Positions 60,318 to 63,138 of a stretch of DNA of 64,000 nt are shown piece by piece. The DNA is taken from contig NZ_CP067101.1 of NCBI RefSeq assembly GCF_016616425.1, positions 1,922,001-1,986,000 of the forward strand, in the 5' to 3' direction. The notes under the pieces were generated by a model. The model was not told where the DNA came from, made no database searches, and saw nothing but the letters and a program-made list of their open reading frames with translations. How positions within the stretch are numbered: the first letter of the stretch is position 1; every line of letters starts with the position of its first letter. The translations under genes were made by a program, and so were the position numbers. The DNA comes from Bradyrhizobium diazoefficiens. Its GTDB lineage: Bacteria; Pseudomonadota; Alphaproteobacteria; Rhizobiales; Xanthobacteraceae.

Positions 60318-60325
60318 CGCTATCC
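60318..60325. repeat. left target-site duplication CGCTATCC
   Basis: The 8-bp word CGCTATCC directly abuts the left terminal repeat and recurs at 63131-63138 directly abutting the right one. An 8- to 9-bp duplication is characteristic of IS1-family insertion. Confidence 0.85.
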
Positions 60326-60347
60326 GGTGATGTCTCAGTTTGAAATT
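60326..60347. repeat. left terminal inverted repeat of the element
   Basis: Begins GGTGAT and continues GTCTCAGTTTGAAATT. The right end, read on the minus strand, begins GGTAGT and continues with the same 16 bases. IS1 also begins GGTGATG. Confidence 0.85.
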
Positions 60348-60351
60348 CTGA

Positions 60352-60747
60352 CTATCTAAGCCAACGATACGCGGCAACTGCAACAGTTGCTGTTACCAAT
60401 ATCCGTATCAGTTCAACGTGGCCCATCATCCAGATACTAGGCGCGGGCGCTCTGGGATTTAACCTATGCTCAGCCTTTCGATAGCCGTACCAGCGGAAAA
60501 GGCAGTTCACCATTTCTGCGATGGTTGCGACGCCTAGAGCGGGAATAATATATCTCGCTATTTCTAGAAGGTAAGCGACCTTGGCAGAATCCGGCTGCAT
60601 TTTCAGCCAAATGAACCCGCCAATGACAGCCGTGGACACCTGCACAAAGAAACGGAATGTGTCCTCCATTCTCTTCATAAAGGCATCGAGCATCGAACAT
60701 ACACGTTTGTAGTGTTCAAGGGGGGTGACGCGCATTTCAGCTGGCAT
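60352..60747 (-). CDS. element passenger: small three-helix membrane protein
   Basis: 131 residues from ATG 60747 (GGGAG, 6-nt spacing). A charged N-terminal helix (EHYKRVCSMLDAFMKRMEDTF) is followed by a hydrophobic span (FFVQVSTAVIGGFIWLKM), another around LEIARYIIPALGVATIAEM and a third at the C-terminus (ILVTATVAVAAYRWL). Unknown family; it resembles small cytoplasmic-membrane sensors in layout only. Inside the IS1-like element, transcribed divergently from the other passengers, and it may be co-regulated through the TGCTT/AAGCA motif in the shared 55-bp gap. Confidence 0.65.
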   Translation of the reverse strand: MPAEMRVTPLEHYKRVCSMLDAFMKRMEDTFRFFVQVSTAVIGGFIWLKMQPDSAKVAYLLEIARYIIPALGVATIAEMVNCLFRWYGYRKAEHRLNPRAPAPSIWMMGHVELIRILVTATVAVAAYRWLR

Positions 60748-60764
60748 TTGCGGCTCCCGCGATA

Positions 60765-60782
60765 TATGCTTAGCGTCAAGCA
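60765..60782. promoter_or_regulatory. element operator 1 (ATGCTT-N6-AAGCAC)
   Basis: ATGCTTAGCGTCAAGCAC spans 60766-60783 in the divergent passenger promoter gap. Read on the other strand it is GTGCTTGACGCTAAGCAT, matching operator 3 in 16 of 18 positions. Confidence 0.6.
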
Positions 60783-60802
60783 CTCTATAGGTTGTGGAAC
60801 AA

Positions 60803-61033
60803 ATGCCAAGAGGCCCAAAAGGCGAAAAGCGTCCCGCCGACGCCATCGGCAACGCCATCATGATCGCCAAGATCGCCACCGGCGAAATTGAGGACATGAC
60901 GACGGAGGATGGCAAGAACGCCGCCGCCGTGGCCTTGGGGCGCATGGGTGGCAAGGCGCGGGCGGCTGGGATGACGGCCAAAAAGCGAAAAGAGATAGCA
61001 AAGAAAGCAGCAAAAACACGCTGGGGAAAATAG
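60803..61033 (+). CDS. element passenger: small basic protein, possible DNA-binding
   Basis: 76 residues from ATG 60803 (a GTG 9 bp upstream is the alternative). N-terminal PRGPKGEKRPADAIGNAIM and a C-terminal Lys/Arg-rich helix GGKARAAGMTAKKRKEIAKK with AAKTRWGK at the end, a composition typical of small nucleoid or KGG-like proteins. The same signature (KRAANLTPEQRREIASKAGN, ARWSK) opens the next gene product. It could bind DNA and control the element's operators, but no defined fold is recognised. Small proteins of this type occur widely in Rhizobiales. Confidence 0.65.
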   Translation: MPRGPKGEKRPADAIGNAIMIAKIATGEIEDMTTEDGKNAAAVALGRMGGKARAAGMTAKKRKEIAKKAAKTRWGK

Positions 61034-61061
61034 CAAGAACGTTCTCTTTTGTTCTCTCTCG

Positions 61062-61084
61062 TGCTTGCTATACAACAGCAAGCA
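61062..61084. promoter_or_regulatory. element operator 2 (TGCTTGCT-N7-AGCAAGCA)
   Basis: A perfect 8-bp-arm inverted repeat in the 88-bp gap before the P63C gene. A further half site AGCAAGCAT lies at 61102-61110, just ahead of the ribosome site. Confidence 0.6.
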
Positions 61085-61121
61085 TAGTACCGGTTCCATA
61101 TAGCAAGCATGGAGCAGGTAT

Positions 61122-62198
61122 ATGTCTGACGACAACCCGCAGCGCCGCGGTGGCAACAAACGGGCAGCGAACCTCACCCCCGAACAACGTCGCGAGATAG
61201 CTAGCAAAGCCGGCAACGCTCGTTGGTCAAAGTTTGCAATTGAACCCGGCCAAAAGCTTCTGAAGTCGGTCGCGAGCGGGATTCTTAACCTTGGAAGCGC
61301 TCAGCTTGAATGTGCCGTCCTCGATGACGAAAACCACACGCGCGTTCTGACGCAGGCGGGATTTTTGACGGCATTGGACCGGGCACCTAAGCCAAATTCT
61401 GGAGGCGGAGGGGCGGTCGCCAACTTGCCTGTATTTTTGCAGGCCAAGAACTTAGAGTCGTTTATTTCCAAAGAGTTGGAGTGGTCGTCAACTCCGATCG
61501 TTTTTGAAGCAAGCAAGGGAGGTGGCTTGAGTGGCCGCTCGCTCGGATATCGCGCTCAGTTATTGCCAGATGTTTGTTGGGTTTATCACAACGCCCAAAT
61601 CGCCGGGAAACTGCTCCCTTCCCAGATGCACGTTGCTGAGAAGTGTACGGCGCTTCTCAGGGCTTTGACGAACGTTGCCATCGACGCGCTGGTAGATGAA
61701 GCGACGGGCTGGCAATACCTGCGCGAGAAAGACGACCTACAGAAGTTGCTGGCGGCCTACATGTCATCCGAGTTGATGCCGTGGACTGAGCGCTTCCCGC
61801 GCGAGTTCTATAAGGAAATGTTTCGGCTTTGGAATTGGCAATGGCCTCCGGCGAATAGCGATAAGGGCGGTCCGCAAGGTCCCAGGTACGCTGGCAAGCT
61901 GACCAATAAACTGGTGTACGACCAGCTACCTCCCGGGGTGGCCGATGGCTTGAAAAACAAGACCCCAGCCGATGCAAACTGGCAGCGCAAGGACCGTCTG
62001 CACCAGTGGCTGAATGAAGAGATCGGTCAGCCGCACCTAGAAAAGCAAGTCGCGGTCGCCACCAACATCATGAAGGTTTGCGACGACAAGGACGAATTCA
62101 TGATGAAATTCGAAAGAGCATTCCCGAATACATTCGAGAGAGGTCGCCAACTTTCCTTCCATAAGAAATTGAGTGGTCCGAAAGACCTCGACGAATAA
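61122..62198 (+). CDS. element passenger: P63C-domain protein
   Basis: 358 residues. The N-terminus (~1-35) carries GGNKRAANLTPEQRREIASK like the preceding small protein. The C-terminal two thirds contain the P63C hallmark VDEATGWQYLREKDDLQKLL, then PWTERFPREFYKEMFRLW (residues ~205-245). P63C domains are known from phage and other mobile genes; biochemical function is unknown. GGAGCAGGT gives the ribosome site. Its TAA stop overlaps by one base an ATG that could open the transposase frame. Cargo of the IS1-like element. Confidence 0.85.
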   Translation: MSDDNPQRRGGNKRAANLTPEQRREIASKAGNARWSKFAIEPGQKLLKSVASGILNLGSAQLECAVLDDENHTRVLTQAGFLTALDRAPKPNSGGGGAVANLPVFLQAKNLESFISKELEWSSTPIVFEASKGGGLSGRSLGYRAQLLPDVCWVYHNAQIAGKLLPSQMHVAEKCTALLRALTNVAIDALVDEATGWQYLREKDDLQKLLAAYMSSELMPWTERFPREFYKEMFRLWNWQWPPANSDKGGPQGPRYAGKLTNKLVYDQLPPGVADGLKNKTPADANWQRKDRLHQWLNEEIGQPHLEKQVAVATNIMKVCDDKDEFMMKFERAFPNTFERGRQLSFHKKLSGPKDLDE

Positions 62199-62215
62199 TG
62201 CTTGACGGTAAGCAT
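62198..62215. promoter_or_regulatory. element operator 3 (ATGCTT-N6-AAGCAT)
   Basis: ATGCTTGACGGTAAGCAT with perfect 6-bp arms; its centre contains the TTGACG that serves as the -35 box of the transposase gene. Confidence 0.65.
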
Positions 62216-62230
62216 AAAAGTTCAGATAAT
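62202..62230 (+). promoter_or_regulatory. transposase promoter
   Basis: TTGACG (62202-62207) and GATAAT (62225-62230) are 17 bp apart. Initiation ~7 nt after the -10 would fall at the A of ATG 62237, giving a leaderless or near-leaderless mRNA. Confidence 0.65.
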
Positions 62231-62236
62231 AGGGGC

Positions 62237-63121
62237 ATGAACAAGCTGCCCCTGCAAACCCGCGTTCAAATCCTCCAGATGCTCTGCGAGGGATCGTCCA
62301 TGCGTTCGATCTCCCGGATCACGGGAGTTTCGATCAACAGCGTTTCCAAGCTTCTGATTGATGCCGGTTTGGCTTGCGCGGCCTACCACGACCTGATGGT
62401 CCGCAACGTGCCTGCGAAGGCCGTCCAGTGCGATGAGATTTGGTCGTTCAGTTACGCCAAGCAAAAGAACGTCAAGTTCGCCAAGGCCGCCCCTGCGGCT
62501 GCTGGCGACGTCTGGACGTGGACCGCGATTGACGCCGACTCCAAGCTGATCGTCTCTTGGCACGTTGGCGACCGTAGCGCGGACACGGGCACGTCGTTCA
62601 TGTTCGATTTGAAGGCCCGTCTTGCGAACAAGGTCCAACTGACGACAGACGGCCATAAGGCGTATCTCAAGGCCGTTGAGGAAGTGGACCTTGATGCTGA
62701 CTATGCGATGCTGAACAAGATTTTCGCAACGGACTACGCTGGTCCGGGCCGCTACAGCCCGCCCAAGTGCATAGGCGCGATCAAGAACCCCATCAAAGGC
62801 AACCCCGACCCGGCCCTGGTCAACACGTCCTTTGCCGAGCGGCAGAACTTGACCATGCGCATGTCAATGCGCCGCTTTACCCGGCTCACCAATGCGTTCA
62901 GCAAGAAGTTTGAAAATCACTGCCACGCGCTGGCGCTCTACTTCGCGTTCTACAACTTCTGCCGCGTCCACAAGACGCTTGGCGTCACCCCGGCGATGGC
63001 CGCTGGCCTGATCGAAACGCCGGTCAAGATGGACGGCATTATCAAGATGATCGATGAGGCAAGCCCGGTTAGGGCGCGCGGCCCTTACAAGAAGCGGAAC
63101 GGCCCTGAAATTTCAAACTGA
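62237..63121 (+). CDS. IS1-family transposase
   Basis: 294 residues from ATG 62237; an upstream ATG at 62198 would add 13 residues and overlaps the P63C stop. An N-terminal HTH (~residues 18-48, EGSSMRSISRITGVSINSVS) precedes a DDE-type catalytic domain. Candidate acidic residues are Asp66 (QCDEIW), Asp138 (TTDGHKAY) and Glu201 (FAERQN), with the C-terminal MRRFTRLTNAFSKK. It cuts and joins the terminal repeats. The reading frame is intact and the stop overlaps the right repeat, so the element may still be active. Confidence 0.9.
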   Translation: MNKLPLQTRVQILQMLCEGSSMRSISRITGVSINSVSKLLIDAGLACAAYHDLMVRNVPAKAVQCDEIWSFSYAKQKNVKFAKAAPAAAGDVWTWTAIDADSKLIVSWHVGDRSADTGTSFMFDLKARLANKVQLTTDGHKAYLKAVEEVDLDADYAMLNKIFATDYAGPGRYSPPKCIGAIKNPIKGNPDPALVNTSFAERQNLTMRMSMRRFTRLTNAFSKKFENHCHALALYFAFYNFCRVHKTLGVTPAMAAGLIETPVKMDGIIKMIDEASPVRARGPYKKRNGPEISN

Positions 63122-63130
63122 GACACTACC
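63109..63130. repeat. right terminal inverted repeat of the element
   Basis: Inverse of the left repeat with two mismatches (positions 4 and 5 from the outer end). It includes the transposase stop codon. Confidence 0.85.
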
Positions 63131-63138
63131 CGCTATCC
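63131..63138. repeat. right target-site duplication CGCTATCC
   Basis: Direct copy of 60318-60325, abutting the right terminal repeat. Confidence 0.85.

Follow-up and report, generated by a model that had tools for sequence, protein, structure and literature searches.

The IS1 family of insertion sequences (IS) is defined by inverted repeats that begin with GGT and by target duplications of 8–9 bp; classical IS1 encodes its transposase in two overlapping frames, insA and insB, joined by a frameshift, single-frame subgroups exist within the family, and the typical member is short and carries a transposase only, a trait that is not strictly defining. A number of IS families have passenger-carrying members (PMC7986276), and the term transporter IS (tIS) is used for single-transposase IS derivatives that hold passenger genes between their ends (PMC9330008). 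Here we report on an element of 2805 bp in a 64 000-nucleotide stretch of Bradyrhizobium diazoefficiens DNA (from contig NZ_CP067101.1; the whole stretch is called the window below), which by its anatomy is a transporter IS. We consider it probable that it represents an IS1-type cargo transposon, with an autorepressed backbone and an exchangeable cargo that is often defence-like, the P63C-domain protein carried by this copy being a candidate of that kind.

The element and its insertion site

Inverted repeats and a duplication of CGCTATCC bound the element at 60326–63130. The left end, GGTGATGTCTCAGTTTGAAATT (60326–60347), agrees at 20 of 22 bp with the reverse complement of the right end, GGTAGTGTCTCAGTTTGAAATT (63109–63130), and CGCTATCC stands as an exact 8-bp duplication at 60318–60325 and 63131–63138; the repeats, the duplication and the length of 2805 bp were thus all re-measured as the original prediction had given them. 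When all pairs of sites 700–6000 bp apart that are flanked by an exact 8-bp duplication were compared, the element ends were the sole pair in the window with more than 16 of 22 matching positions; in a chance control with 15 first-order Markov windows, the best such pair per window scored 14–17. The features of the locus are as follows.

60318–60325, unstranded: left target duplication CGCTATCC, present as a single copy in an empty allele (L084)
60326–60347, plus strand: left terminal inverted repeat, 20/22 against the right end; the consensus over 72 elements is GGTAGTGTCTCAGTTTGAA
60352–60747, minus strand: left-slot open reading frame (ORF) of about 131 residues, tentatively a membrane protein (sub-threshold 8xMP match and one strongly hydrophobic stretch)
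60765–60782, minus strand: operator-like palindrome upstream of the small gene, the exact reverse complement of TGCTTGACGCTAAGCATA
60803–61033, plus strand: universal small basic protein of 76 residues, isoelectric point 10.4, a probable repressor, present in all 73 complete elements
61062–61086, unstranded: longer palindrome, TGCTTG...CAAGCATA, upstream of the P63C gene in the window copy, with half-sites like those of the operator
61122–62198, plus strand: middle-slot cargo, a P63C-domain protein of 358 residues (Pfam PF10546, 3.2e-29; phrog_2384, 2.6e-98, residues 3–337)
62198–63121, plus strand: IS1-type DDE transposase of 307 residues (Pfam DDE_Tnp_IS1 profile; NCBIfam IS1 score below its cut-off), the conserved part starting from M14 (62237)
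62199–62216, plus strand: operator-like 18-bp palindrome that overlaps the −35 box of the transposase promoter-like site
62202–62230, plus strand: promoter-like TTGACG-17-GATAAT, directly preceding the conserved start of the transposase; in the alignment this sequence is conserved between elements
63109–63130, minus strand: right terminal inverted repeat, overlapping the transposase stop
63131–63138, unstranded: right target duplication CGCTATCC, an exact copy

An empty site with a single CGCTATCC, which the original prediction had proposed to look for in relatives, was found at locus L084 of genome G066, where one uninterrupted CGCTATCC lies between joined flanks of 87% identity. The left flank was matched in 118 of 149 genomes and, among 29 flank loci retrieved from relatives, 20 aligned across the junction and nine in two pieces. 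The host genome (7.14 Mb, a single contig) holds one full copy of the element. A decayed transposase remnant of the same group lies elsewhere in it (G000:C1:4814358–4815114), with 79% DNA identity over the matched part.

The transposase and the element family

By its transposase, ends and duplications, the element can be placed in the IS1 family, as a distant member with a single reading frame. The predicted IS1-type transposase was confirmed by the Pfam profile DDE_Tnp_IS1 (27.5 bits against a cut-off of 24.1, E 4.4e-6), and its alignment with IS1 InsB by hhalign gave a probability of 90 and an E-value of 1.6e-6, with D79, D151 and E214 falling on the IS1 motifs. The membership is called distant because the score against the NCBIfam IS1 profile, 64.7 bits, lies under the cut-off of 100. 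The gene, whose start overlaps the P63C stop (TAATG), is a single frame of 307 residues without overlapping insA/insB frames and a frameshift, so the claim is limited to a distant, single-frame relative of IS1. Homology to InsA was also sought in the small basic protein and none was recognisable; with no match to IS1 InsA, that protein was rejected as a recognisable InsA homologue. The repeats begin with GGT and the duplication is of 8 bp, as in the family; at 2805 bp and with cargo, the element does not share the short, transposase-only form of the typical member.

The window transposase was compared with the genomes of 84 980 species, in which at least 585 relatives were confirmed; the best 80 of these were retrieved and, together with the window's own, make up the set of 81 transposase loci, the nearest of which are from Bradyrhizobium. 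Both ends were found at 73 of the 81 loci, giving 73 complete elements, of which 72 are distinct (L064 duplicates L063). An 8-bp duplication with at most one mismatch was present at 65 of the 81 loci and was exact in 64 (63 distinct, plus L064), where, at loci with several candidate ends, the duplication was itself one criterion in the choice, many loci having offered a single candidate pair. The 72 distinct elements are 2125–5291 bp long (median 3192), the longest (L049) having no duplication and an uncertain left end. In an evenly drawn sample of the class, the transposase was present in 40 of 385 genomes, partial matches being counted.

Repeated copies with different 8-bp duplications had been named as the proof of mobility, and such copies were found in a relative: a Sphingopyxis genome carries L063 and L064, identical 3316-bp copies inserted at separate sites, with the duplications CGGAGCCG and CAATGCGC, and cargo and ends therefore move together. 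These two copies, the duplications across the family and the empty allele bear out the proposal of a mobile IS1-type unit that moves as a whole, and it is through the first two of these that the group has the transposase, the ends and the co-moving enclosed passengers of a transporter IS; the window's own P63C-bearing version was not seen at two sites. Comparison of copies shows that the transposase mobilises all that lies between the ends and generates the 8-bp duplication.

Two further kinds of element were observed. Locus L139 (1489–2589) holds a 1101-bp internal-deletion derivative that retains the two ends, the small gene and the final portion of the transposase gene, and whose duplication matches at seven of eight positions. 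A distant IS1-type subfamily (L250, 3162–7782, and L249, 3874–7402), with a transposase 34% identical and the ends GGTACTGTCC/GGTGCTGTCC, has P63C (L250) and a SocA/Panacea protein (L249) between its ends; the L250 element, with ends GGTGCTGTCC, has an exact duplication, and the small protein was not detected in L250 or L249.

Backbone, cargo slots and cargo exchange

Pairwise DNA similarity between elements (12 pairs) was found in the left end, the small gene, the transposase gene and the right end only, plus a few short matches. These four parts, the small gene probably encoding a basic regulator, form the backbone. Cargo sits in the three variable slots between them: one to the left of the small gene, a middle one that separates it from the transposase gene and is filled in every element examined, and one to the right of the transposase gene. 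The middle slot measured at least 746 nt in all 72 distinct complete elements and held an ORF of at least 90 residues in 71 of them; the slot to the right of the transposase gene exceeded 200 nt in 28. The original prediction had regarded an IS1-type unit with cargo as unusual, which does not hold within this group, because every complete element has a middle slot of that size. Its suggestion of a membrane protein at the left stands in part: the ORF is present, and its membrane identity is tentative, the match to 8xMP (E 0.0033, 17.7 bits) falling below the cut-off of 30. A tblastn search at 1e-3 with this ORF found no match in the remaining 72 complete elements.

On the transposase tree, the contents of the middle slot change in a seemingly random way. 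The cargo differs between L018 and L023, whose transposases are 96% identical, and in 34 of the 40 closest transposase pairs no cargo cluster of the middle slot is common to both. Cargo distance was uncorrelated with transposase distance for RmrA (n = 15, r −0.03), P63C (n = 10, r −0.07) and AAA proteins (n = 7, r −0.21), and four cargo classes placed on the transposase tree required 20 changes against a shuffled mean of 20.7, a count as low being reached in 83 of 200 shuffles. The comparison shows that cargo is exchanged between elements, which is why closely related transposases carry different cargo; the route may be recombination in the shared backbone segments.

A small basic protein and the operator-like palindromes

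The small basic protein had been counted among the passengers, a role that we rejected: it is present in all 73 complete elements, which were picked by their transposase alone, its distances and the transposase distances are correlated (r 0.37, p 0.001, n = 72), and it occurs near element ends. Since none of the 72 distinct complete elements lacks it, it is not cargo and has to be placed in the backbone. A search at 1e-12 found it at 15 places in 149 relatives' genomes, 13 of them with an end nearby (at most two mismatches) and one, L253, with variant ends; at the place in G094 no end was found nearby. Its predicted structure consists of three helices (predicted local distance difference test score, pLDDT, 83.5; predicted template modelling score 0.40), and Foldseek found no match to the model in the PDB.

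The operator-like palindrome, with at most four mismatches in 18 positions, lies near the left end or the small gene in 54 of the 72 elements, upstream of the transposase gene in 50 and at both places in 46. Elsewhere, five matches were found in 215 kb of elements and two in 462 kb of flanks, and there were none in 125 kb of shuffled elements. The promoter-like sites of the region, two against 1.8 in shuffles, are by themselves no evidence. As a check, we used 17 further loci that had no role in the palindrome consensus: the four whose small proteins are at least 58% identical (L264, L265, L159 and L269) have the palindrome at two places each, and the other 13 (small protein at most 56% identical, or none detected) gave a single match, in one locus. 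Over the 72 elements, presence of the palindrome was predicted by how similar a small protein is to those of palindrome-bearing elements with an area under the curve of 0.98, compared with 0.74 for the transposase, and L038 and L050, with transposases 95% and small proteins 50% identical, have the palindrome in L038 only. When the sequences just upstream of the small gene were matched directly with those just upstream of the transposase gene, the signal was weak (11 of 71 at 13 or more of 16 positions, against 2 of 211 shuffled), because the usual place of the left operator is some 60 bp away from the left end. In L252 (4377–7821, from a genome of the same genus) the palindrome is absent and the small gene is reversed with respect to the transposase gene; its transposase and small protein are 79% and 53% identical to those of the window.

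Because the palindrome tracks the small protein better than the transposase, and given the pairing of the sites, we take the small protein to be a probable repressor. It would bind the palindrome on the transposase promoter and the second copy near the left end, and in doing so would repress both the transposase and itself.

Defence-like genes in the cargo

Cargo clusters were annotated from one representative each, and the main cargo ORF was scanned in 71 of the 72 elements. With PADLOC at a threshold of 1e-8, and for the best 25 of 116 matching families, the main cargo proteins matched RmrA in 15 of 71 cases, PD-Lambda-2_B in three and HEC-04 in three; at most five of 91 flanking proteins were matched (five family matches in all), in a flank control that had been trimmed by hand from 127 to 91 ORFs (under about 550 residues). 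The comparison of 21/71 with 5/91 gives an odds ratio of 7.2 (Fisher p 5.4e-5). The partner RmrT was matched in the one RmrA case tested. RmrA and RmrT are described as the two components of RosmerTA (PMC11883136); one RosmerTA system is reported to protect Escherichia coli from some phages, its toxin depolarising membranes (PMC10440598).

The remaining cargo includes SocA/Panacea and PemK/MazF-like proteins, Abi_2 (just under the cut-off), nSTAND/AAA proteins, a ClpP-like protease and unknown proteins. Counted by cluster, a known defence or toxin-antitoxin type is present in 29 of the 72 elements, in 38 if P63C is added and in 45 if AAA proteins are added as well. Of four plasmid copies examined, one has two hypothetical proteins between the small gene and the transposase gene, a second carries an XRE regulator plus a hypothetical gene, and the remaining two a helix-turn-helix (HTH) protein plus a hypothetical gene, no ends being found for one of the latter (L266). 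A RES-domain/Xre antitoxin pair (L264, 5422–6260) was considered as plasmid cargo and dropped, as it lies just outside the right end as called. A three-gene set also recurs (L044, 3588–4915), made up of DUF6941, a weak HTH match and one unknown protein, with its clusters in seven, six and five elements; we regard this set as a candidate defence module. For the family as a whole, the results support a cargo that benefits the host cell or holds on to it, often through anti-phage or toxin-antitoxin genes.

The P63C protein

The identity of the middle-slot cargo as a P63C-domain protein was upheld (Pfam P63C, 3.2e-29). P63C is present in ten of the 72 elements, in plus orientation in three and minus in seven. 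Among 13 P63C loci in two genome samples, five lie beside an IS1-type and two beside an IS1595-type transposase (within about 1.5 kb). The protein is abundant in viral contigs, where 550 of 600 pattern matches were confirmed among the matches listed; its neighbours in 80 viral contigs revealed no dominant partner gene, the commonest recurring frames lying opposite P63C itself and the next same-strand genes occurring in at most eight loci. P63C has no match to a catalogued anti-phage system in PADLOC at 1e-8. A sequence search of the PDB gave a best E-value of 0.19, and the predicted structure (pLDDT 85.6) had no Foldseek match in the PDB at 1e-3. The proposal that P63C, a phage-type gene, is a candidate of the same defence class as its counterparts in other copies is one of guilt by association, and is the weakest step in the scheme.

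P63C was also seen on transposons of another family. A viral contig (L206, 158–4309) contains a complete 4152-bp IS1595 transposon whose 8-bp duplication, AAAGTTTT, is exact and whose transposase exceeds the NCBIfam IS1595 cut-off; its cargo is P63C and a DNA methylase to which a restriction-endonuclease-like domain is fused. These three gene types recur together in L143, and L272 has P63C next to a methylase match and a transposase of IS1595-like type. In the window element, the N-terminus of P63C (61122–61230) and the small protein (60950–61030) have a 30-residue motif in common, which among the cargo ORFs scanned occurs in P63C proteins only (seven of ten, by pattern).

Alternative explanations

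That the boundaries lie by coincidence around ordinary chromosomal genes is scarcely conceivable: the Markov chance test rules it out, the existence of the empty allele refutes it, and the duplications at the related loci speak against it. The small protein might instead be an architectural or transposition co-factor, similar to histone H1. The protein is basic and universal and has neither a fold match nor a match to InsA, and on one plasmid copy the gene that occupies its place carries the annotation 'histone H1', although the small protein did not match that gene in tblastn at 1e-3. Against this, the palindrome sits on the transposase promoter and follows the type of small protein more closely than the transposase, and we think this role unlikely, and repression of the transposase the better account. 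Similar weight may be given to the idea that the cargo serves the element, by making its loss costly or by excluding competing elements, with phage defence as a by-product. Several clusters are indeed toxin-antitoxin-like (RosmerTA, MazF-like, SocA/Panacea), and whether such modules serve addiction or defence is a question that PMC10440598 itself raises; on the other hand, the AAA/HEC-04-like and PD-Lambda-2-like cargo is not obviously addictive, and chromosomal loci should gain little from addiction. A cargo that serves the element is in our judgement improbable, and we favour one that serves the host cell.

The most substantial alternative concerns P63C, which may be a phage-derived transcription regulator (Bro- or antirepressor-like) that modulates the element or prophages rather than a defence protein, a reading to which we give somewhat less than an even chance. 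A regulator role remains a serious rival to the defence role because the predicted structure matches p63 of phage Mx8 in a viral structure library (1e-7) and, more weakly, Bro proteins; the abundance of P63C in viral contigs, the motif that its N-terminus shares with the small protein and a Bro-N match in one of the 71 main cargo proteins point the same way. Against it, P63C is present in so few elements, and in both orientations, that the element does not need it, and in IS1595 transposons it accompanies a methylase/restriction-like protein.

A number of other results also weigh against an autorepressed cargo transposon with exchangeable, defence-like cargo. One cargo cluster, c3 (the three-gene set, n = 7), is somewhat correlated with the transposase (r 0.53, p 0.06), 27 of the 72 elements have no cluster assignable to defence/toxin-antitoxin, AAA or P63C, and both the single representative behind each cluster annotation and the hand-trimmed flank control reduce the weight of the defence counts. 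For P63C, six of the 13 loci have neither transposase type nearby, PADLOC at 1e-8 gave the protein no family (0), and there is the weak structural resemblance to Bro-type viral regulators. As for the operators, a test of their pairing among the 22 elements that lack the standard palindrome at the transposase gene fell short of significance (p 0.11), and the small gene of L252 is inverted.

Comparison with known systems

Defence genes ride on phages, plasmids and large islands. A unit barely above the size of an insertion sequence, with a conserved backbone and an exchanged slot, would rank among the smallest vehicles of immune genes. We put forward tentatively, as a possibility on the doubtful side, that self-repressed IS1-type transposons of 2–5 kb are a widespread family and an exchange platform for bacterial immune genes, every copy having a replaceable defence module placed between an autoregulated repressor gene and the transposase gene, and that P63C is an unrecognised defence protein found on IS1-type elements, IS1595-type elements and phages. 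The slot could also be used as a tool for discovery that would single out unknown slot proteins (P63C, the three-gene set, cluster c11 and others) as candidates for defence, and the paired-operator model would account for the way in which an IS with cargo holds its transposase in check. Searches of an open-access library yielded no account of an IS1-type group with a universal regulator and an exchangeable slot rich in anti-phage genes; single members may already have been named.

The window group resembles E. coli IS1 (InsA/InsB) in its aligned DDE core, its 8-bp duplications and its ends, which begin GGTGATG as in IS1A, and differs from it in its single frame, the lack of a recognisable InsA, the universal small basic gene, the cargo and the size, 2.1–5.3 kb compared with 768 bp. 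With the IS1595-family transposons it has in common the 8-bp duplication and P63C as a passenger (L206), whereas the transposase group and the ends of those transposons (GGCAATGATATAC) are different. With RosmerTA the family is linked by RmrA as cargo (15 of the 71 main cargo proteins, for the best 25 of 116 families), whereas the window copy itself has no RosmerTA and carries P63C. The likeness to the transporter IS is that the window element is a single-transposase IS with passengers between its ends; what sets it apart from those described is a conserved accessory gene, paired operator-like sites and, family-wide, a swapped slot that is enriched in anti-phage genes.

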